Assembly: GCA_964017195.1 (NCBI GenBank)
Contig: OZ024894.1
Coordinates: 2,308,260-2,372,259, forward strand
Reading direction: 5' to 3'
Length of the DNA: 64,000 bases
Source of the DNA: Siderastrea radians
Lineage: Eukaryota; Cnidaria; Anthozoa; Scleractinia; Rhizangiidae
Below, in pieces: positions 15,356-63,875 of the stretch. Position numbers and translations under genes: made by a program. The notes under the pieces are model-generated. The model was not told the origin of the DNA. It worked only from the letters and a program-made list of their open reading frames with translations, and made no database searches. The number at the start of each line of letters is the position of its first letter. The first letter of the stretch is position 1.

Positions 15356-15625
15356 CGCGATAGCCCTACTGCGCAAACGCCGGTGCAAAGGAAGATGAAG
15401 TAAACGGATTTAGGTTAGCACTAAACGCGATTGGAATTGTTTTCGATCACGTCTACACATTTGAAGTTGGATTCTGGACTTTGCTAACTTCAAATAGTGT
15501 TGGCTTTGCCAGCATTCTGAATTTCTAATCCTTTATCCTACACTAGGCCATACTCCGGCTTCCTTTTAGAACCTTATTCTAGACTAGAGAACGATAATCT
15601 CTACCCTATCCCGCTCTTTTAAGTA
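15356..15625. repeat. Dispersed repeat, also at 59300-59460 and 60215-60305
   Basis: The part '...gatttaggttagca...ttgaagttggattctgg' recurs at 59340-59450. The next part, 'atcctttatcctacac(t/c)aggccat' through 'aacgataatctctaccctatcc', recurs at 60222-60303. The two parts are adjacent here but separated by about 800 bp at the other location, so one copy has been interrupted. Confidence 0.75.
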
Positions 15626-34800: not shown

Positions 34801-37800
34801 CTGGAGTGAGAAAACTAGCTCTAAAGTTTTTGAGCTTTTCATATATGTGTAAAAGTTATCAGAGAAATTAAATTGAATGTTTATATCGGGGTGTTAGAGC
34901 GCAAAAAAAAGAGTTTTTCGTCTTCTTTTATAAAGTAACGATCCCATGGACTTGCATGGTGTGCCGTTAGTATGAAGAAAGAAATTGCATTAGGCGCAAA
35001 GTGACAGGAGGATGATGATGTTGAATAATTATTTAGGAATAAATATTACAGATAATTGTTGTAATCTTTGTGAAATGCATTTTCGTACCTTTACAAAGAG
35101 GCCAAGACAAAACCAGGGGCAAAGAAATAGTTTAGCACGTCACAGGACACTGTTTCAGGTCTTTACTAAAATGATAATGTTTGCTTCTATTTTTAGAATG
35201 TCAAAAAGCTCTCGGAATGGAAAGCGGTGCAATCTCTCGATCTGACTCACAAATCAGCGCCTCTTCAGAGTTGAATGCCAATCATTCCGCCATCCAGGGA
35301 AGACTAAACATTCAAGAAACTTCAGGTAAAGCCGGGAGCTTGGGAACCTGGCACTAATGACGTCAATCCATGGCTGCAGGTTGATCTGCGTAATCAGATC
35401 ACTAACGTAACGCGTGTGGCAACGCAAGGACGAAATTATAACAGGCGATGGCCCCCTGGTTCTCACAGTCAGTGGGTAAAAGAATACAAGTTGCAGTACA
35501 GTGACGACGGTGTGAACTTCCAATACTACCGGGAACAAGGACAACCCACAGATGAGGTGAAAATACTTTGTCTGGGAAACGTTTTAACTGATAAACTGGA
35601 ATGTACTAACGATAGTGACAAGGTAACGGAAGAGGTTTAAGACATGGAATCGACTCCCAAGCACAAAGAGAACGCTGGTTTCATCACAGACATTTTGCAA
35701 TGCCGTCCGTAGCATATATCGTTCTTTTTAATGTAATTAACTCAGTTCCTTCTTCCTTCTTTTTAATTGTGTTTATTATATTTTTTCTAGGGGACTAATG
35801 AGGTCCTAGTCAGTTCCGAGGGTATCTGAAGAAAAATATTTCCCAAAAATTCACATTTAATCCGATTTAACGATAATTTATAGCTGCGTGGCCGGATTGC
35901 ATGTAAACGTTTATAATAATAATAATTTATACTAATTAATAATTTATAATAATTTATTGACTTCTAATGATCAAAAGCGCAGTGGAAAGCGTAAAGAAAT
36001 AACTACAGTAGTAAATAAATACATCTTATTCGATGGTTTAACATATAATACGCGCGGATATCCGGCTTGCGAGTTGCGTAGTATTTTTCCGGACCCCAAA
36101 GGGACGAGGAAAAATACGAGCAATGAGCAAAATGTCCTCGCGTATTATATGTTAAGCCATCGAATGAGAGATTTATTATTCCACTTGTAAAAAATCACTT
36201 CCAAATTTGGTTTTTCTAGTCCTTCGGCCAGAAAACCTAGGTTTTGCAGTGCTATACATAAATTTGCTGTGTAATACCGTGGGTTATTTTGTGCGTTCTC
36301 TTGACCTTATATGGTAAAATGGCGCAAGAGTGGAATAATAATGCTAAATACTAGGACCTATAAATGATCATCACATCATAACATATCACAATAATAAGCT
36401 TAGCATTTTCTTTTCTGATTGGTTTAGGAGTTTGATGGGAACGCAGACCGGGACACGGTTGTGTATCATGATTTACATCCACCAGTCAGGGCACGTTACT
36501 TCCGTTTTCGACCAACTGAATGGCATAATTACATTACAATGAGGGTGGAGCTTTATGGCTGTAGAGGTACGTACCCAAGATCTCAGTCTTATTCCGTCAA
36601 TTACTTAGTTATTTTACATCATACCCTTGTTTACCTTCTACCGTTTTTATTTTTTGAGCGCTACACTGAAATAAACACTAACCAGCGAATTTCAGAGGTT
36701 GCTATTTCAACTGGTGCAAGACCGGGAAAGGGGTGCGAGGGATGTTGCGAGGGATCTCCCGTAAAAGCTTTAAAGCTGTGTGGGTATATGCGCACAGAAA
36801 GCAGTAGAATACTAGCTGTTTGTGTCCCATATATAAGGTAGGGCTTCACAAGCGTCCTTACATCTCCTTGAGCCATACAGTAACGCCGACTTCTTATATA
36901 CAGTATAAAAATTATAGGAAATAAATCTTAAACCGTAAATGAAAAATAGCCCGATCCCAAAGGAAGTCCGTTTCAAGTAAGAGTCCATTGAATTGCGCAC
37001 TGGATATATTCAGTGTACGGAACATTTTCAGAGTGGGAAAAGGCTATTTCACGCTAGGCAGCCTTTTCCCAGGCTTCGTGAGACCGCTGAAATGTAAATT
37101 CAATTTTGCCGCGGGAATGGTCCCTTATAATATATTCCATTGTGATACGCTGCTATAAGGTTTCACAAGTTATAGTGCAACTGCATGAGTGTGTTGAAAA
37201 TGCCCTAAATTCCATCGGTCAGGAACGCTTCCTTGAACAAAAAATTTATATCTAATTGATAAGAAAAGGAAAAGGTATTCGAACTTTTTAATGGTACCTT
37301 CGAAAATGGGTCAATAAACAAGTTCTTTTGTTAAACTAACAAGAAATTCGAAATTTTGGTACTGTTGCCGGATTCTAGATATTTACAGAGAGCCGCTCTT
37401 AAGTACATTTGAAGTAATCTAGATCAACATTTTCGTTTGCATTTCAATGTCCCCGAGTATGGTCCAAAAGCGCTTTTCGCTCATCTAATCCTGTCAAAAT
37501 TGTAGCATGTCACTGACTGGCAACAGCCAACCATATCAATGATATGGTCACTTGTTTTGAAATACGTATTTTTAGACTTACGATGTTGTTTGTAACTTTT
37601 TCAGTACAAACCAAGCCTCCAACTCCAGGTCCTTCAGGTGAGCAACAAACTTGAAGAGGAAATCAAATACCCCTTGCGCCCTTTTACCTTCCCCTTACCC
37701 ACCGCAAAAGGCGAGGGTATAAGAGCCAGCACCCCTTGAATATTTGCCAATTTTTCCCTTGGACGCGCATATAACGACATGATGAAAATGGGGAGACTGA

Positions 37801-37817
37801 GGATTTAATCATCATCG

Positions 37818-37865
<48 letters not shown>

Positions 37866-40800
37866 ACAACAACAACAACAACAACAACAACAAAATCATT
37901 TCTTAACAAATTTTGGACGACAGAGGCATGTGAAGCCAGCTATTCGTGAAGGGTGAATAATAGAAAGAACAATAACAGAGAAAACAACTGTTCCTTACAG
38001 ACAGCAATCTGACAAGCACATTTAACGCCGCGGCTAAACGTTCCAATATTGTTGTTAAAACATTTTTTGTGTGACAGTGTTGGATCTAGATGGGCAACTA
38101 AGCGACATTTAACATCACTCCAACATTCAAGGGTGCTTAGTGTTCTAACTTTGTCAAACAAACAAATCGGTTGTACAACAATATGGGAACGTTTATCCGC
38201 AGTAAGCGTGCACCTTCGTCGTCCATCCAGCCATATTCTGCTCAGGTTTCTCTTATACAGTAGCCGTCAGTGAAACCTTTTAACTAATTTCTTTTGCGTG
38301 TTTGTAAAAAATATAATAGTTGAAGTATCTGTAATTTATTCCAGATGGCTCACAGTGCCCAGCGGAAATGTTAGATGGAGTGTCGTGGTCAGTTACTGCA
38401 GGAGGAGGGACGGATGTAAAACCGTGTCCAAAAGGGGCCAGAGGTACGTCACTGACAAGAATATGTAAGGATAGAAGTTGAACATGGTCAAAGGGGTCTC
38501 TAAAACAGAAGCTAAGGGAGTATGAAGCTCCTTTTTTAATTGCAGAAAACCCCATATTATGAGAACAGTTAAAAAACTATAATTTTCTTCTGGCAACAAT
38601 AACAGCTTCTTTTTTGAAAACACACAAAAAAAGAGTACAAGATTGTAACGAGTTTCAATGTTACACTACTCTCTTAGTTTTCATTGACGTCGATTGGTGA
38701 AGCCATATACTTGCACTCATATATTCTTCGCAGGAACGGCGTCTCGGAAATGTGCAAAGAATGGAACGTGGAAAGACATGAACTTCACAGGCTGCAGCTC
38801 CGAACAGTTTATCAAGCTTGCTAACGTGGTGCGTAATATGTACCTAAAACTCTATGTGAGACGGTCGCTTATACTAGGGGTTGAAACCTAGCGTTTGGTA
38901 ATCAATTTTATTTAAACTGGTCCTGACGGAATTGGTCGCACATATACGTAGGAAGATTATCGTGTACAAGCTGGGATAGCTTGCATCGATGGTTATTTGG
39001 TTATTGTTTATGTAACGTTTTCCAATAGATCTGATGATCACACCTTTTCTTTATCTACTCTTTACTTTGACTTAATTCCTTTCACCATTTTGCGTGTTTT
39101 CTTTCAGACGGAAGCAATCATGAGAGGCTTTCCATCGGATCTCAATGCCCAACAAGTTCTAGCACAGTTGGTGAAAGCTTCTCAGCCTGTAACGAACAAT
39201 TCAGTAAGGCCGACACAGATCTACGGAGACGATTTGGTTACAGCAGTGGATATACTTGTTAAAATGGCCAAATGTAATGGCAAACAAGTCAACGTAAGCT
39301 CAACAAAAGATTTTGAAAATTATGCGCAAGTGGCCAGTAATTTGTTGGAATCAACAAACAACAGAACTTGGAAGGAACTAGAAAAAGTAAGTTAATTTTT
39401 CTTTGTCACAGAAAGTTCTACAACGATCAATATCGTCATCATCATCGTCATCGTTTTTCTTTGTTACAGAAAGTTTTTCTATATTCAACATCGTCATCTT
39501 CATCAACATCGTCGTTATCGTCACCATTTTCATTGGCACGATTGTTGTCGTCTACGAGACATCTGTACTTGTTTGGGTACTTTTAAGCTGACTGAAGTTA
39601 TAACCGTTGCGTAAATCCGATGATAACAACGACGACGACGATGGAAATCAAAAGAGGCCATCCGTGGAATCGGTTCAGGAAACATTTAAAAAAGATTAGC
39701 ATTACAAAATTGGCAAAATCCTGCAATCTGACGATATGACATTTTAAAGAAACGAAGAGGGTTAGCGTGAACAAGTGTTCACATTTTGCTCCGTCGTGTT
39801 GAAACGATTCTTGGGTCAGTGTATAGACAACAAATAACAACAGACAGCAAAGCCAGTTTCTAAACAATAATTTTACCTTTTTACTTAAAGGCACTTATTA
39901 GATTATCGACAAAATTCACTAAAATCTGACAATGAGTTCTACATCTATCCATTTCCTTTTAAAATAACCCCATATTATTAAAATAATACTTCAACTGTCT
40001 TGCGTGTTTTATTTGCAGGCTGGTCAAGGTAGGAGTCAAATCTTGGTCAAAGCAATGGATGATTATGGACTAGGAGTCGCTTCCACATTTAATGCGTCGA
40101 CATATTCGAAATTTGTTCAAGCAAAGAACCTGATGATGAGAATTGATCGCTTTCTAGAGGGAATTCCGGTATGAACAAAGTTGGTTTTGGAAATATGCTT
40201 CTTCCTCCTAGGAGATCTCGACTGATGGAAACGTATAAAAAGTAGTATAAGAAGTATAGAAAAGTATTTAAAAAAGGCAAAATCTAAAAAATTGACAAAA
40301 TAATGAAAACCAACGTACGCTCTGTGTACTCTGACTTTCCTTTCTCTTTTTTTTCAGTCGGGATTTAAGGGCCTAAAGGTTGCCTATAACCAAAGTTCCA
40401 TCTTTTTGCCTCATCAAGTGTTCAGTTCATCTCAAGATTCTCGCGTTGTAACTCTGGTTTACCTGACGTTAAACGATGTTTTATCACTTTCAAAAGAAAA
40501 TGAAGATAACCAGACTCTCTCGACCAGTACAGCTATTGTGTCTTCCACTGTTGAGCCCAGGCCCCCAGACGTTCTAAACAAACCTGTCAAGATCGTATTA
40601 CACAACAAAAAGGTGGGTGGTTTTTGGAAAACCTTTCCTCTGGTTTTCAAAAATGTATAAAGATAAATTTATTAGCCCTTTCTCTTCTAGAGTAATAAAC
40701 TAGCGTGCTTCTACATTTTGAGTCTGGACGAAATCAGAAATTGTGACCATTCAAATGAAAGCTACTGAGCAACAGACTTCATTCCAAAATGGCTGCCATA

Positions 40801-42003
40801 GATTTTGTTGTTGGCCAAGTTTGCCAGAAATTAAATCGACAACTTCACTTGAAAAAGCGACATAAAATAAGAAATCTTGGAAAGTTTAGTGTTTTGGTCT
40901 AAAAAACTTGAACGTTCAAGTTTGAGAGAATTGAGATTAGTTCCTTGTCTTGGCTTGCCAATGAAGTAATAATATCTCGTGTATATTTTTATACGGTTCC
41001 CTGGAATGTTAGAGCTAATGTTTGGAGGTAGTTCCTTTTGAGGCTCAAAGGTTATGACTCGTACAGTTTTGAGAGATTTATAGGGGAAACGTGATTTTTG
41101 TCACCCTTCTGGTTTGGACAAAAATAAATCACTGTATTTTCTCATCAAATTAAATTATGACCTTAAAACTTTACACAACTATTCCCTGTGACTTAATCTT
41201 TATATCTCGACTTCATTTTTCAATACTTTCAAGGGGCGTTCTTGATTTTGGTTTAAAGCATTTTTTCAGGTTTACTCCTATCTTGAACGTTTTGAGAGTA
41301 AAGAGTTTAACTTTAGTAAACTCTTAATTAACATCGCATATTTTCCGGCTGAATTCTATTTCTTTATTGTTATTGTTTTTTGATGTCAAGTCGAGCACCC
41401 CTTCAAACTTTACTTTACAAGCAAACTGCGTATTCTGGAGGCCAGGAGAATCCGCGATATGGAACACCAGCGGCTGTAGGCTGGCCCCTGGTGAATCCAA
41501 CGTCACTGTGACGACGTGCGAATGTGATCACCTGACCATCTTCGCAGCACTCATGGATCCATATGGCCCACCTGTAAGTAATCAAAATTATCAATTTCTA
41601 CCTCTTTTCTTCCGGCAACTTGCTCGCCGAGTTGTCTTAATTGACTTTCTTTTCCTCTCTAACCCAAGTTTTGTATGTTGGGATCGTTTTAAACACCTTT
41701 ACGACTGAAATGTCCATAGGCCTCACGATTTTGGTGACATTTTTGTTTTAACAATTTCTCTTCTTGAATTCTTTTTTTCCGTATACAGGACAATAATAAA
41801 GTTCACAAGGAATTCGAAGTTTTGGAAATCATCTCCATTGTTGGCTGTTCCATTTCGCTCCTCGCTGTTCTCATTACCATAGCTGTGACTCTGTTTTTCT
41901 GGAGAGTGCTAAAGAGTCCAAGGGCTAAAGTGCTGCTTACCTTATGTGCTGCCATTGCAGCTACCTGAATGAATGAATGAATGAATGAATGAATGAATGA
42001 ATG

Positions 42004-52803: not shown

Positions 52804-53370
52804 GGATGTTGTAAAAAATACAAAGAAGCAAAAATTAAAATTAGAAAATTACAAACTACAAACTACAAAAAAAAACTGAGAGATTTTTTGTGAGTAAGCC
52901 TGCAAACACCATGTGTACGCAGTTTCTTGAAATCCACTCCCTCTGGTCTAAGAAAGTACACAATGGTTGTTTACCATTTACAACAACTTTCCGGAAATTC
53001 CGGTTGGAAAGTAAATGGTACACGACTTTTCGGGTCATTCCAGTGGAAAATTTCCGGGAGCAACGGAACGTCTGAAAAGGTAGTCCTGTTTTTCCGGACG
53101 GAATGTTCCAAACGGAAATTCGTGTACTACTTGTTCAAACCTAATCTTTGATACCAGTTTCAGGCTCTCGCAGCCATTTTCTGTCCCAACAGCAAACGTC
53201 ACTTTTAAAATGACTTCATAATCTTTTGAAACTTCTTGGCGATTATATTCCGACTCGTTTAACCTGTCTAATGCAGTCGAATTACCCAGGAGCTGAATTT
53301 GTAAGGACGGCGTATCAGTTCAGGAAGAACTTATTTAGAAAATTAATTAGAAAATAGCTGGGTCCCCAGT

Positions 53371-53440
<70 letters not shown>

Positions 53441-54067
53441 TTTATTAAATAGGCAAAACGAGCCGGAATAATCGCCCAGAAGTTTAAAAGATTGTGAAGT
53501 CATTTTAGAAGTGACATTTTCCTTCCCATTGCCGTCATGGTTGTTTAAAGCTCTCTAATTTTGAGACGAAAAATTGCCGCGAGAGCCTGAAGTTGGTATC
53601 AAAGATGAGGTTTGAACAAATGGAACACGAATTTCTGTTCGGAACATTCCGTCGGGAAAAATGGGACTACCTTTTCAGACGTTCTGTTGGTCCCGGAATT
53701 TTTCCACTGGAACGACCCGAAAAGTCGTGTACCATTTACTTTCCAACTGGAATTTCCGTTTGGAACATTCCGTCGGGAAAAATGGGACTACCTTTTCAGA
53801 CGTTCCGTTGCTCCAGTAATTTTTCCTCTGGAACGACCCGAAAAGTCGTGTACCATTTACTTTCCAACCGGAATTTCCGGAAAGTTGTTGTAAATGGTAA
53901 ACAACCATTGTGTACTTTCTTAGACCAGAGGGAGTGGATTTCAAGAAACTGCGTACACATGGTGTTTGCAGGCTTACTCACAAAAAATCTCTCAGTTTTT
54001 TTTTGTAGTTTGTAGTTTGTAATTTTCTAATTTTAATTTTTGCTTCTTTGTATTTTTTACAACATCC
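52804..54067. mobile_element. 1.26-kb fold-back transposon
   Basis: Arms 52804-53250 and 53465-54067 are inverted copies, from 'ggatgttgtaaaaaatacaaag' outermost to 'gaagtcattttagaagtgac' inside. The right arm is longer because of a 121-bp tandem duplication (53641-53761 and 53762-53882). Frames within the arms mirror each other and are not genes. Non-autonomous; the superfamily is unknown. Confidence 0.92.
53376..53440. repeat. (AAT)n microsatellite in the fold-back loop
   Basis: About 21 AAT units in the spacer between the two arms. Confidence 0.97.
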
Positions 54068-54499: not shown

Positions 54500-56154
54500 C
54501 AAATTAACGTTACAGTTTTAAAGGTTTATTTTTCTATACAGTTTCGATGCCATTACCTTGTTGTGGTGGTTATCGGAAAAGGGGGACTTACCGCAGTTTA
54601 CGCGCTTTTCAAGATAAGGGAACTCCTTGAGACTGAAGGTATATTGGGAAAGGGGCGACTAATGGGAAAACACTCATTCCAAAGCCAGCGCTTGATAGAA
54701 AGGAGGCCCTTAATATATTGCAAGGAGGGCGCTAAATTGAATCATTGCGGCAAGCTATTCCAAGGATTAAATACAATCACTCCATCCTTGTGTATCATAT
54801 TTGACTACATTGAATCACTGAGCTACAAGATGATAAGCATGCTATGGTTTTTCTTTTTCTGCATTTTAACGAAGAAAATAATAAGATTACCAAAAACACT
54901 ATGACTTGGCTGTACTAAAGATAGGTCATAAAATTCGCGTTTGATTCTTGTCACTTGTTGCATACAAATAACATTAACATCTTAATTTCTATCTTTGTCA
55001 AATATGATTGTCAAATACTAACCACAGTGCTGCAATAAGTTTCTAAAAGTAACAGCCACTTTCTTGGTGCCTTCAGGCTCGATCAGTTTAGGAAGTGCAA
55101 GGTATGTTGACATGCACAAATTTGCGTAATTACCTTTGGTATTCGAGGACGGTTCATCCCCACCTTAAACTCTTCTAATTTTTATCAAAATAAAATCCTC
55201 TGGAATTTTTTAATATTATTTTTGAAAATAGTTCGATGTGAAGGTCTTTTTGCCACAATAAAAATAGTAGTTTTTTTGGCATTTGACACGAGATTTTCGA
55301 AAGTTACTTCAGCGATGGAGAATGCAAGTGCTGTCGCGATCGCCGGTTTTCTTCACTAAGATGTTATATATAACTATGTTTCAACATGCAAACACAAGGA
55401 AAATGTCACTGGTAAGAGAAACCTTTCAACTATAGCTTTCCTTGAACGTGTCAGTTTCAATTGGTGGTTCACAAATAAATATTTTTAATATGCCACCTGG
55501 CTAGACTCATCAACGGTCAATTCCTACGCTGGACTAAGTTCTTCATACCACTAACAAGTGTTGTCTGGATAAGTGATCGACACCCTCTTCTAGGCCAAAA
55601 CTTTCTAACTTCTATACCTCATCCTGGACTAAACTGCTGCTTAAAACCATACCCTTCACTGCAGCATTTACGTATAAAGCTTATATATGAGAGTACCTCC
55701 TCCCCCCCCCCACCTCTCAAGGACGTGCAACCACTGCTTCCCTTTAATAAGGCGAAAACATCGTACTTACCTATCTATTGAATGGGATGTATAAGTTAAA
55801 GTGCACGTTCCGTGTTGATTTTTCAAGACAATCCTTTGCTCAGCTGCATCAAAGGTTCCCGAGTTCTCTTACAAATTTAACGAATATATAAGGCGCTAAA
55901 CCTTCACCGGAAGGACAAAATACAACACCAGATAACATTTTATCTACTCTATTAAGCAGCTTTACTTTTTAGAGCTTATTTATATCGATGGGAATTCTCA
56001 GTTCATTTTTCACACAAACCAAACAAACTCTTACATTACGATTAGGCTACCTTGTGGTCAACACAAACCAGTTTGTGAGCGGACTCTGGGAGGCAGATAT
56101 GGAATGTAACTTTTAATCATGAAACCTAAAGCTCTTGTTCCTTCTTTCCGACAG
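54500..56154. other. Upstream of the METTL7-like exon, no coding exon recognised
   Basis: A 113-codon frame at 54563-54904 has no domain. From 55315 to 55860 the sequence is a dispersed repeat (see separate entries). I searched for a methyltransferase SAM-binding motif (E-x-G-x-G-x-G) upstream of the 56155 exon and did not find one. Confidence 0.5.
55313..55860. repeat. Dispersed repeat shared with 29340-29480 and 60300-60690
   Basis: The first part (to ~55470) matches 29340-29480. The second part, 'tagactcatcaacggtcaattcctacgct' through 'agtgttgtctggataagtga', 'aaagcttatatatgagagtacc' and 'gcagctgcatcaaaggttcccgag', matches 60302-60693. Confidence 0.8.
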
Positions 56155-60214: not shown

Positions 60215-60693
60215 TTCAAATCCTTTATCCTACACCAGGCCATTCTCAGCTTCCTTTTACAAGCTTATTCTAGACTAGACAACGATAATCTCTACCCTAT
60301 CCTAGACTCACCAAGGGTCAATTCCTACGCTACACTAAATTCGTTATACCACTGACAAGTGTTGTCTGGATAAGTGACACCCTGTTATAGGGCAAAACTC
60401 CCTAATTTCTATACCCAGCCATCCTGGACTAAACTGCTGCATAAAACCACACCACACCCTTCACTGTAGCATATACACGTAAAGCTTATATATGAGAGTA
60501 CCCCCCCCCCTCCCCCCACCTCTCAGGGACGTGCGACCACTGCTTCGCTTTAATGAGGCGAAAACATCGCACTTACTTATCTATTGATGTATTTGTTTTA
60601 CATTTGCAGTATTAGGTGATGTTACTGTTAAAGTGCACGTTCCGTGTTGACTTTGACAAGACCTCTACGCAGCTGCATCAAAGGTTCCCGAGT
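60215..60693. repeat. Dispersed repeat shared with 15530-15610 and 55490-55860
   Basis: 60222-60303 matches the second part of the 15356-15625 repeat, and 60302-60693 matches 55498-55860. It ends about 280 bp before the TATA box of the BRICHOS gene. Confidence 0.8.
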
Positions 60694-61081: not shown

Positions 61082-63875
61082 ATGGTAGGTTTAGATTTTT
61101 CAGTGTAGTTATTTTCATGGACAGTTCTGCTCAGATCACTGGTCCAGGCCGTTTGTTTTTCTACTTGAACTTTCTCGCGAAGAGGAAGACCATTTTCCGA
61201 ATGTCTTCCGCCGGAAAAGATAATGGATCTTTATTTTTCCGTTTACCACGGGAATTCCAAACCGGTTTGCTTTGATTGAATTGTTTTTAAAAGCTTAAAA
61301 TGCTCCAACTTCTTAAGGAGAAATATTAAAAACGAATTTACTACAACTACTGCATCTGCGTTTTTGTTTATTTATTTAGAACACCGAAAATGATGTGATC
61401 TGCGGAAACACGAGTGAAATGAAGATGTGACCGTGCGTCAAAGTTGTAATCGCAATTTAACAGTTGTAATCGCAGGTGCTTTAATTAATTGCGATCACAA
61501 CATGTGGTAGTCAGCTTCATTTCATTTGTTTGTATGTTTGATAAATGTTTCGGGTGCAATTTGCTCATTAACAGTCATGTAACAACTTCGGGTTACACAA
61601 TTTGTTGATCATGAGTAATCAGTCTTGTATCTGTTTCGCCAGGATTTCAAGTTGTTCTCTTTGTGTCTTGGTCTGGTGGCCGTCGTGAGGTGTGCTTCCT
61701 CTGTTCCTGAAGAAAAGGTAAAAAATGTGTAATTTTTTAGAGAGCTCTAGTCATTTAAAACTGAAAATAGCCCAGTTGAAAAGCACTCTGAGCATTACAC
61801 TTGTTAAACAATAAGAAACGGTTTTGATCTCCACTCTTCGCACTCCACAGGTTTCGGTGGCAAAATACACAATGAAACTGTCCAAAGACGGCAAGGAATA
61901 TGACGGGGAGATTGAAATTGACACTAAAAAAGGAACAGAGACCTTCCATGTGCCGAAGGCTGCTTCCAACGAAGAGCCAGGAGATGTGGTGTATGATTTC
62001 AAAAGGGTAAGTAGCTCAAACCGGTACCAAGAAATCAGTGACGCTTCAATCGGCCTTTTTGTTTTCGTTCCCAGGGGCGCTGGCACGGTTTCTCATTGTG
62101 GGGTCCTTAAGATGTGTTTCACAAACGGCAATCGGAAGCCCGCTATTATTTCGTGCCACTTCACCACCCTCCGCCGGCCACCTCTTAAGCATACAGTTTT
62201 ATGACGCAAGCAGGGTCTACTGAGTTCTAAAGGGTCGTGTGCAATCTCACAGAATAACCATCCGATCTGTTTGTCTTCTTCCAAAGGGATTGACCTTGAT
62301 TCGGCTACCAGATGTCAAGTCCTGCTTTTTGAGTAATTCGACAGACGATGTTCCTAAACCGGCCGAGTTGGTTAAACTGTTGGTAAGTGAGAGAGTTTGC
62401 TAATAAGTTTAGTGATAACCGTTTCTACGGGAACAGACACAAAGTTGAGTTGATCTTTGTTTGAGATATATTTATTTATTAATTTGTTTCCAGCTTTAAT
62501 TTTTCCCTGCAAAGAGACCATATTCTCGGCTGCGGAATCCGCAATGTTGTTGTAACTTTAATGTCCCTTGTTTTGGTACTTTTTCTTTTATCGAATCCTT
62601 CCGCACCAAGCTGCCTAAGTTCAAGTTGGTTGCTGTAAAGCCTCCAACATTTGCAATCCTGGTTATCAGTCTGGTCTGATTCAGTCCGGTCTGAATCGTG
62701 TATTTGCTATTTTCTCTTTACACTGGCGACTGAAATCGAACTCTCAAGTCACCAGTGTAGTGATAGTAACCATCTGTAGTAGAAGTAATTCACTTTTCAA
62801 ACTCTTCTGTCACAAAACTTTGATCACAAGAACTGCTCAGAACTTAAAGCTGTAAATTCTCAATCTTGACATTCGAAGGTTCCCACTTCCTTTATTAGAT
62901 GTCTCTTTCCACTGTTTAGTGAGTTTTAGAAGCTCATTCTGACAAACTTAACATCTTTATTGTACACTCCTTCTTTAGGAAAACAGTGAGCGCAGTGGTT
63001 TTGAAGTGGAAAGATCTCGATCTGCTATAAATTTAACAGTTGTCGGAGTTCTCCAGGACCGTTCGGAATTGAGCGATGAAATGGCGGAGCTGTGCGCCAA
63101 GCTGCCGATTTATATCGTCGCCGAGGGCGATCTCGATCCAAGTGATGAGGATCAGGTGGCCGTTGAGGCTGAAGATGAAACTGCTTACATAGAAAAACTG
63201 TCTGCAAAACGTACGTAAAAGCAAAGTTTAAACCCTTACCCTTTTTAAAGGTATTAAAATACGCATATTAAAATACGCGTATTAAAATACGCTAATCGCT
63301 TAATCGATATGGTATCTCTTCCAAATAACTTGAACAAAAATTGCATATTTGTGCCTCGAAAATGAACCCAAAACAGTAGATGATCGCAGGATTTCAGTCA
63401 CTCGAAAGCTTCAAGCTTTCCTCTATTTTTGCGTTATGGTTCTGCCAACAATGTCGCAATCATTTTTAGTACCTAGACTTAGCTGCCATCTTTTTCAGCT
63501 GACAAATACAATGTATTTCGGCGACCCTTAAACATACTAAATTGTAATTTTTTTTACGCTTTCGTATACTGGTAGCGCAAAAAAGGCACCGGACCTTCCG
63601 GAATAACTTTCTTTGATTGGTGAGAACTCACGCCATGAGATCGAATCAAAAGTTCGACGTTCTAACCACTATGCATGTATTCAGATATGTGTATTTTTGT
63701 CTCTTCTTTAGGAGTGAAGCGAGGATGGGGAAGAATCCGCATACGCCGCGTGAAGCCAGTTCTCAAATGGGTCTGCAGAAACGTTTGCAAGTATAAATGC
63801 TACAAGTATTGCAACGTCATATGTTATAATGTCTGCAAAAGGCACTGCAGTCGTGTCTGCGGCTATATTGGGTGA
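61082..63875 (+). CDS. BRICHOS-domain precursor of a cationic Cys-rich (antimicrobial-like) peptide, six exons
   Basis: Exons 61082-61084 (ATG only), 61643-61717, 61851-62006, 62287-62382, 62979-63210 and 63712-63875 join in phase to give 241 residues. Residues 2-19 are a signal peptide (L-F-S-L-C-L-G-L-V-A-V-V). The BRICHOS domain spans about 66-160: D-V-V-Y-D-F-K-R-G-L-T before Cys91, and E-L-C-A-K-L-P-I-Y-I-V around Cys149, the two disulphide cysteines. Residues 159-182 are strongly acidic. A furin site R188-V-K-R191 precedes the last 50 residues: 13 Lys/Arg, no Asp/Glu, an N-terminal G-W-G-R-I-R-I-R-R stretch, then eight cysteines at mature positions 18, 22, 26, 30, 34, 38, 42 and 46. BRICHOS precursors of polychaete antimicrobial peptides (arenicin type) have this order, with BRICHOS acting as an intramolecular chaperone. 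Antimicrobial function here is inference. All donors and acceptors are canonical and no lesion is seen. Confidence 0.92.
61643..61717 (+). CDS. BRICHOS gene exon 2: signal peptide
   Basis: Twenty-five codons, phase 0 at both ends. The initiator ATG is alone at the end of exon 1 (ATG|GTAGGT), so this exon supplies the whole hydrophobic core. Cleavage is likely around residues 18-21, C-A-S-S. Confidence 0.9.
61851..62382 (+). CDS. BRICHOS gene exons 3-4: pro-region and first half of BRICHOS
   Basis: Exon 61851-62006 (52 codons) carries a strand-rich linker (Y-T-M-K-L-S, Y-D-G-E-I-E-I-D) and V-V-Y-D-F-K-R. Exon 62287-62382 (32 codons) continues G-L-T-L-I-R-L-P-D-V-K-S-C with the first conserved cysteine. 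Both are phase 0. Confidence 0.9.
62979..63210 (+). CDS. BRICHOS gene exon 5: second half of BRICHOS and acidic linker
   Basis: Encodes the rest of the domain with Cys149 in E-L-C-A-K-L-P-I-Y, then an acidic stretch (E-G-D-L-D-P-S-D-E-D-Q and E-A-E-D-E-T) that can neutralise the basic peptide before processing. It ends with one base, which with the next exon makes the first Arg of the furin site. Confidence 0.92.
63712..63875 (+). CDS. BRICHOS gene exon 6: entire mature cationic peptide
   Basis: Fifty-three codons: V-K-R completing the furin site, then the 50-residue peptide and TGA at 63873-63875. Mature residues 18-46 follow a strict C-x-x-x repeat with eight cysteines; between them are Lys, Arg, Tyr, Asn and Val. 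The C terminus G-Y-I-G ends in glycine, so amidation is possible. It is a self-contained effector exon joined by a phase-1 intron. Confidence 0.93.

Follow-up and report, generated by a model that had tools for sequence, protein, structure and literature searches.

A BRICHOS precursor gene ending in an evenly spaced cysteine run

The window analysed here, a stretch of 64,000 nucleotides from the stony coral Siderastrea radians (contig OZ024894.1, positions 2,308,260 to 2,372,259, forward strand), carries near its 3' end a gene predicted from the sequence to encode a precursor of 241 amino acids in six exons, with five introns that are all GT-AG and a reading frame that is uninterrupted across all six exons in the translated gene model (Table 1). 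The precursor matches the BRICHOS profile PF04089 over residues 68-155 (49.9 bits against a cut-off of 25, E = 3.9e-13; profile positions 3-90 of 91), and Asp75 (within YDF), Cys91 and Cys149, all inside the matched region, correspond by position and motif to the conserved BRICHOS Asp and Cys pair. The pro-region is acidic (computed isoelectric point (pI) 4.6, net charge about -13), and the phase-1 intron before exon 6 splits the first Arg codon of a furin-type convertase site, R-V-K-R, directly after which the mature peptide would begin. This is the layout of BRICHOS-related antimicrobial peptides, i.e., a signal peptide (judged by eye), an anionic BRICHOS pro-region, a basic site and a cationic C-terminal peptide, and the predicted gene is well-formed. 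No second copy was found inside the window by tblastn.

The original prediction, made from this stretch of DNA, had described the product of exon 6 (63712-63875) as a 50-residue peptide with eight Cys in steps of four, and the description is exact: Cys stand at positions 18, 22, 26, 30, 34, 38, 42 and 46, together with 13 Lys/Arg, one His and no Asp or Glu (pI 9.9, net charge about +12.8). Given eight Cys per 50 residues, a single unbroken C-x3 run has a chance of 4.1e-8, and in 60 Markov-simulated windows of 64 kb the longest C-x3 run comprised four Cys in 8, three in 48 and two in 4. The mature peptide matches no Pfam family at E ≤ 1, ShK included. Splicing of exon 6 in another frame, which the original prediction had considered, finds little room: past the acceptor at 63711 (99.9th percentile among the AGs of the window in a rough splice matrix) one frame stops immediately, one gives 27 amino acids without Cys, and only the third opens into the Cys-rich tail, with R-V-K-R at the junction.

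A simple-repeat or microsatellite origin of the run was ruled out, as outside the Cys codon its seven 12-base units resemble one another no more closely (2.90 of 9 bases) than codon-shuffled ones do (2.87; p = 0.43). Elsewhere in the genome, a stretch that appears microsatellite-like from its translations (L005, C1:42073765 region) gives long C-x3 runs of the CLSV/CMYV type in several frames, and L016:3703 is perhaps another, again judging from its translation. Such stretches are a trap for scans seeking the C-x3 pattern, which is why the repeat control on the window run matters.

Table 1. Predicted features of the BRICHOS precursor gene, in positions of the window
Feature	Position	Strand	Remark
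TATA-box-like TATAAAA	60972..60978	+	About 110 bp 5' of the start codon; the window has 16 words of this kind; candidate only
Exon 1, coding part	61082..61084	+	ATG alone, then GT donor
Exon 2, putative signal peptide	61643..61717	+	Hydrophobic core LFSLCLGLVAVV; judged by eye
Exon 3, acidic linker and BRICHOS start	61851..62006	+	Holds conserved Asp75 (YDF)
Exon 4, BRICHOS	62287..62382	+	Conserved Cys91
Exon 5, BRICHOS end, acidic linker, beginning of convertase site	62979..63210	+	Cys149; phase 1 end
Exon 6, start	63712..63722	+	Completes convertase site R-V-K-R
Predicted mature peptide	63723..63872	+	50 amino acids
Stop codon TGA	63873..63875	+	

The C-x3 register recurs among paralogues in the same genome

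A search of the genome (804.8 Mb in 439 contigs) with exon 5 found 17 further places (L018 to L034), 14 of them with E ≤ 1e-3, on contigs C5, C8, C9, C13 and C14. Within about 1.5 kb upstream of exon 5, tblastn detects exon 4 at 14 of the 17 places and exon 3 at four, and all seven spliced paralogue fragments match PF04089, six of them over the cut-off. A cargo exon, i.e., one that encodes a basic site followed by a Cys-rich tail, lies 3' of the exon-5 match in 11 of the 17 places (that of L022 in a 3-kb extension of the locus), and C-x3 arms are present in ten of these 11 cargos. The peptide is not isolated: it is the predicted tail of a BRICHOS precursor that has paralogues with C-x3 cargos in the same genome and, from these predicted tails, the C-x3 register is the mark of a paralogue family rather than of the window peptide alone.

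The spacings between successive Cys are 3,3,4,3,3 in L020 and L022, 3,3,3,4,3,3,3 in L019, 3,3,3,3,4,3,3,3,3 in L018 and L021, and 3,3,14,3,3 in L025-L028; the C-x3 part of L030, counted despite an in-frame TGA in its exon 5 and read from the translation, gives 3,3,3,8,3,3. Five of the 11 cargos thereby have mirror-symmetric arms around a central C-x4-C turn (3+3, 3+3, 4+4, 5+5 and 5+5 Cys), the four residues of the turn being GGWV, SGLV, GWGG, SGWS and SGWS. In the window gene and nine paralogues, a phase-1 donor joins an exon that starts with a basic convertase-type site (donors hand-picked among phase-1 candidates; L030 not in this count); in L018 a second, weaker acceptor three bases downstream would also serve. 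The window peptide has a 17-residue Cys-free basic arm before its Cys run, while in the other C-x3 cargos the first Cys follows the first basic site after at most seven residues.

On C14, L025-L028 are four near-identical BRICHOS genes with a 6-Cys cargo, CX3CX3C-X14-CX3CX3C. The exon-5 stretches of L026 (C14:7568145-7568285) and L027 (C14:7634975-7635115), about 67 kb apart, are identical, so that the duplication looks recent.

Tail comparison between the window gene and its paralogues

The link between the window gene and its paralogues comes from the shared exons 4 and 5 and from the position of the cargo. When the tails themselves are aligned without gap costs, the best alignment of the window tail with L018 has one nine-residue gap between Cys34 and Cys38, at the turn of L018 (score 109; neighbouring placements 108), and the alignment with L021 places a nine-residue gap (103) or a one-residue gap (101) at the same point. 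Once gaps are penalised, the optimum is a gap of nine residues for L018 and of one for L021, both at Cys34-Cys38, while L019 and L020 score lower, with one residue in Cys30-Cys34 and in Cys26-Cys30, respectively. As a one-residue offset at a four-residue turn is forced by the Cys spacing, these scores only show which turn fits best, and this appears to be the turn of L018 and L021. Beyond the Cys, none of 1,000 plain shuffles reached the similarity of the window tail to L018, and likewise none of 1,000 for L021. In the best alignment with L018, one turn residue and two rungs fewer amount to a difference of 27 bases.

A four-residue turn is present in all five of the other symmetric short-turn members, so that loss of a turn residue in the window gene would be the simpler reading, the direction of change being inferred; an exon-5 tree did not resolve the position of the window gene. 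The Cys lattice of the window peptide admits nine single-hairpin registers with two or more rungs, of which i+j=64 alone pairs all eight Cys, while i+j=72 retains the turn of the relatives and leaves out Cys18 and Cys22. One missing turn residue thus makes the register of the window copy perfect and also ambiguous.

Fold of the cysteine-rich part

Nested disulphides require equal arms around a turn, and the symmetry of the paralogues therefore favours nested disulphides in a long beta-hairpin. In an antiparallel two-stranded sheet, four-residue steps put all Cys on one face, at the non-hydrogen-bonded sites usual for cross-strand disulphides, where proline is tolerated; tachyplesin, with the pattern C-x3-C-x4-C-x3-C, and capitellacin have such an arrangement with two rungs. 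The original prediction had expected an unusual disulphide topology. It need not be exotic, since the paralogue symmetry suggests rungs nested as in tachyplesin and capitellacin.

Residue preferences were examined in the 42 C-x3 units of seven peptides (the window peptide, L018-L022 and L030, with L024 and L025-L028 left out). Val or Ile occupies 26 of the 42 third positions and Lys or Arg 18 of the 42 first positions, all four prolines stand at the middle position, and the Cys part of the window peptide has a mean beta propensity of 1.17 against 0.86 for alpha. In an alpha-helix, each four-residue step drifts by 40 degrees, i.e., by 160 degrees along a five-Cys arm, so that five rungs do not fit two straight helices.

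Other features of the window

Just 5' of the TATA-like region, 60302-60693 is repeated 4.8 kb upstream at 55501-55864 (79% over 400 columns), and 60211-60302 matches 15519-15611 at 90%. An inverted repeat of 318 bp (52804-53121 and 53750-54067, 97% complementary, with 628 bp between its arms) could represent a mobile element or a fold-back repeat. Exons of adhesion G protein-coupled receptor-like genes with F5/8 type C, GAIN and GPS domains lie at 30864-41708, and a similar GAIN-type exon is found about 36 kb beyond the end of the window (L009:5454-5773, minus strand).

Discussion

The reading that we favour, with moderate confidence, is that the gene yields a secreted basic host-defence peptide by the BRICHOS route and that this peptide is a disulphide-laddered beta-hairpin; the cationic Cys-rich composition, with a net charge near +12.8 and seven C-x3 intervals, is in line with a probable host-defence role. 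The acidic BRICHOS part would neutralise the basic, aggregation-prone tail inside the secretory pathway, its BRICHOS domain would keep the tail as a beta-hairpin while disulphides form, and a furin-like protease would free it at R-V-K-R, after which the peptide would bind and then damage microbial membranes. The Cys-rich part may be a beta-hairpin braced by nested disulphides, a longer form of the two-rung tachyplesin/capitellacin hairpin, and the 17-residue basic arm could act as an additional membrane- or wall-binding segment. The window peptide might pair all eight Cys in a ladder of four rungs (18-46, 22-42, 26-38, 30-34) or adopt the turn seen in its relatives (34-38, 30-42, 26-46), leaving Cys18 and Cys22 free for intermolecular links; the choice between such registers could fall to a BRICHOS domain that keeps its client in hairpin form. 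More tentatively, and with some doubt, the paralogues may be a family of BRICHOS-chaperoned ladders whose length is set in whole rungs (three, four or five Cys per arm around a four-residue turn). Within such a family the rungs would be interchangeable, so that small in-frame changes could lengthen or shorten the ladder without breaking it, and the loss of one turn residue would have removed the fixed register of the window member, whose covalent form would then depend on the BRICHOS template or be that of a multi-register cross-linker.

The window gene shares its layout with the polychaete BRICHOS antimicrobial peptides (arenicins, alvinellacin, capitellacin, nicomicins, abarenicin and HfBRI), which have a signal peptide or membrane anchor, an acidic BRICHOS pro-region, a basic site and a cationic C-terminal peptide, with a cargo that varies widely (PMC10745061, PMC6265681). 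Capitellacin and HfBRI-54 have a regularly spaced four-Cys hairpin, given as C-X4-C-X4-C-X4-C, and HfBRI-75 and HfBRI-91, with 11 Cys, are neither cationic nor classified (PMC10745061); the Cys-rich AmIMP1/2 and a 'defensin-like' Arenicola peptide are mentioned only (PMC10745061, PMC6265681). Whereas the polychaete scaffolds described there hold zero, one or two disulphides, the paralogues here have 6, 8 or 10 Cys in strict C-x3 arms, and the window copy also differs from them in its 17-residue basic arm. BRICHOS proteins in general possess a convertase site, and the nested Cys of their C-terminal part are compatible with a hairpin (PMC9714404); AlphaFold2 models in which BRICHOS holds its client as a hairpin have been discussed (PMC10182729). 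In the window precursor the convertase site before the tail is present and a hairpin is suggested by the paralogue symmetry, while AlphaFold2 shows helices. In corals, BRICHOS genes are many (238 sequences from 15 species; PMC5299404), and two predicted BRICHOS antimicrobial peptides of settling Pocillopora (CAH3125467, XP_058945786.1; PMC12960093) likewise come from a BRICHOS precursor; these coral sequences may include orthologues of the window gene (PMC12960093, PMC5299404). The Cys-rich coral antimicrobial peptides damicornin/AmAMP1, related to ShK, have six Cys (PMC11767717), as opposed to the eight evenly spaced ones of the window peptide, which lacks an ShK match.

The original prediction had recognised no described antimicrobial or toxin family with a strict C-x3 run of this length. 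No described family with the eight-Cys pattern turned up in openly readable main texts, searched in one case for the spelled-out pattern, but C-x3 runs as such are used by two described families, minicollagens and 6-Cys alpha-hairpinins. A review of beta-hairpin peptides (2026) includes hepcidins, which have four disulphides, and theta-defensins, which have three, and the parts covered describe no C-x3 ladder exceeding two rungs (PMC13001179).

Several observations weigh against the laddered-hairpin reading. Six of the 17 places (L023, L029, L031, L032, L033 and L034) have no settled cargo exon and were not counted among the cargos; the candidate tails at L029 and L033 include a basic site but lack the C-x3 pattern, and L023 and L031 gave no settled cargo exon even with 3 kb more searched. 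In-frame stops are found in exon 5 of L030 (C13:18424803-18424937), whose cargo arms are asymmetric, and of L032 (C13:18530627-18530752); decay of these two C13-cluster copies or misassembly is the probable cause. In L024 (L024:2085 onward, C8:12006709 region), the seven Cys of the cargo are irregularly spaced and two of them form a CC doublet, which shows that a cargo exon need not follow the C-x3 lattice. As to the tails, the plain-shuffle test is marginal for L019 (24 of 1,000) and null for L020 (130 of 1,000), shuffles keeping column preferences give a weak result (15 of 1,000 for L018, 121 of 1,000 for L021), and whole-genome searches with exon 6 or the L018 cargo found no link of the window tail to the paralogue tails. 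As to the fold, AlphaFold2 without an alignment returned a helical hairpin of residues 6-28 and 32-48 (mean predicted local distance difference test score 79.2, about 91 at 21-40), Cys along one face of a helix being one of the options in the original prediction, and the prolines of L025-L028 stand at the third position, contrary to the proline argument. Set against this model and these prolines, the paralogue symmetry, the residue preferences, including the beta propensity, and the helical drift give the beta ladder better odds than a helical hairpin, though it is not certain.

The alternatives partly overlap, some concerning fold and others function, and their probabilities need not sum to one. 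We consider it unlikely, given the beta-prone composition, the prolines within the arms of L018 and L021 and an angular drift that makes five nested rungs implausible, that the tail is a helical-hairpin defence or channel-acting peptide with inter-helix Cys bonds, like plant alpha-hairpinins and some scorpion and cone-snail peptides. The most likely pairs would then be 18-42, 22-38 and 26-34, with Cys30 in the turn, which the AlphaFold2 model places at residues 29-31, and Cys46 at the end. This support comes from a single-sequence model only, and such models tend towards helices for period-four sequences. We know of no BRICHOS precursor for alpha-hairpinins, and Foldseek found no match in the Protein Data Bank at E ≤ 0.001; none of the six chains it returned is an alpha-hairpinin, an outcome that rules nothing out. 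The 6-Cys alpha-hairpinins do share equal C-x3 arms and the predicted nested disulphides and defence role with the paralogue family, and a helical hairpin with the AlphaFold2 model; the C14 paralogues fit their motif, CX3CX3C-X4-20-CX3CX3C (PMC11591084), exactly. They are, however, a plant family with a centre of 4-20 residues, as against three in the window peptide unless Cys30 or Cys34 is counted as loop (PMC11591084, PMC7191063).

An improbable reading makes the tail a structural cross-linker, in which disulphide swapping between molecules builds or hardens mucus, cuticle, skeletal matrix or capsule and the charge binds acidic glycans or matrix proteins. The secreted Cys-rich domains of minicollagens have the same strict C-x3 register, adopt two folds with one pattern and polymerise by disulphide exchange (PMC4863159), and the turnless window lattice with its registers of at least two rungs would permit the like; yet these domains, CX3CX3CX3CX3CC, have six Cys ending in CC and a conserved proline and flank a collagen helix (PMC4863159, PMC4195985, PMC4989536), while translation and Pfam give no CC doublet in the window peptide and no collagen match in its 241-residue precursor. 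No paper holding both BRICHOS and minicollagen was among the matches listed, and the BRICHOS architecture and the symmetric, fixed turns of the paralogues suggest defined monomers. The BRICHOS domain might also be the working part of a stress-response secreted chaperone, the tail being a processing client without a separate target, as strong induction by heat and acid stress is reported for BRICHOS genes of corals (up to 380-fold, PMC5299404; fold changes of 5.94 and 5.40 in Montipora capitata, PMC8590396). This is more improbable still: in most of the paralogues read, the tails keep their charge, their cleavage site and the Cys lattice while differing in Cys number, which is effector-like, and the coral papers cited do not show the window gene as the induced one. 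Mis-annotation of exon 6, or a pseudogene with an unused frame, is very improbable in view of the open frame across six exons, the BRICHOS match, and a junction and basic site common to the paralogues, although of the five donors that of exon 5, at 63211, scores lowest (92nd percentile among the GTs of the window in the rough splice matrix) and two paralogue places have in-frame stops.

The architecture, as predicted, is the known one of a BRICHOS-related antimicrobial precursor; what appears unusual is the predicted disulphide lattice, common to most of the paralogue cargos found. In two corals, BRICHOS genes rank with the genes reported to be most strongly induced by heat and acid, their role being left to speculation (PMC5299404), and the tail peptide would make this role directly testable. 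The paralogues would further offer a natural series of disulphide ladders, with three, four and five predicted rungs beside the two already known, in which ladder length can be set against stability, salt tolerance and membrane activity, and the window peptide makes a case for asking whether BRICHOS dictates the disulphide register when the sequence of its client does not.

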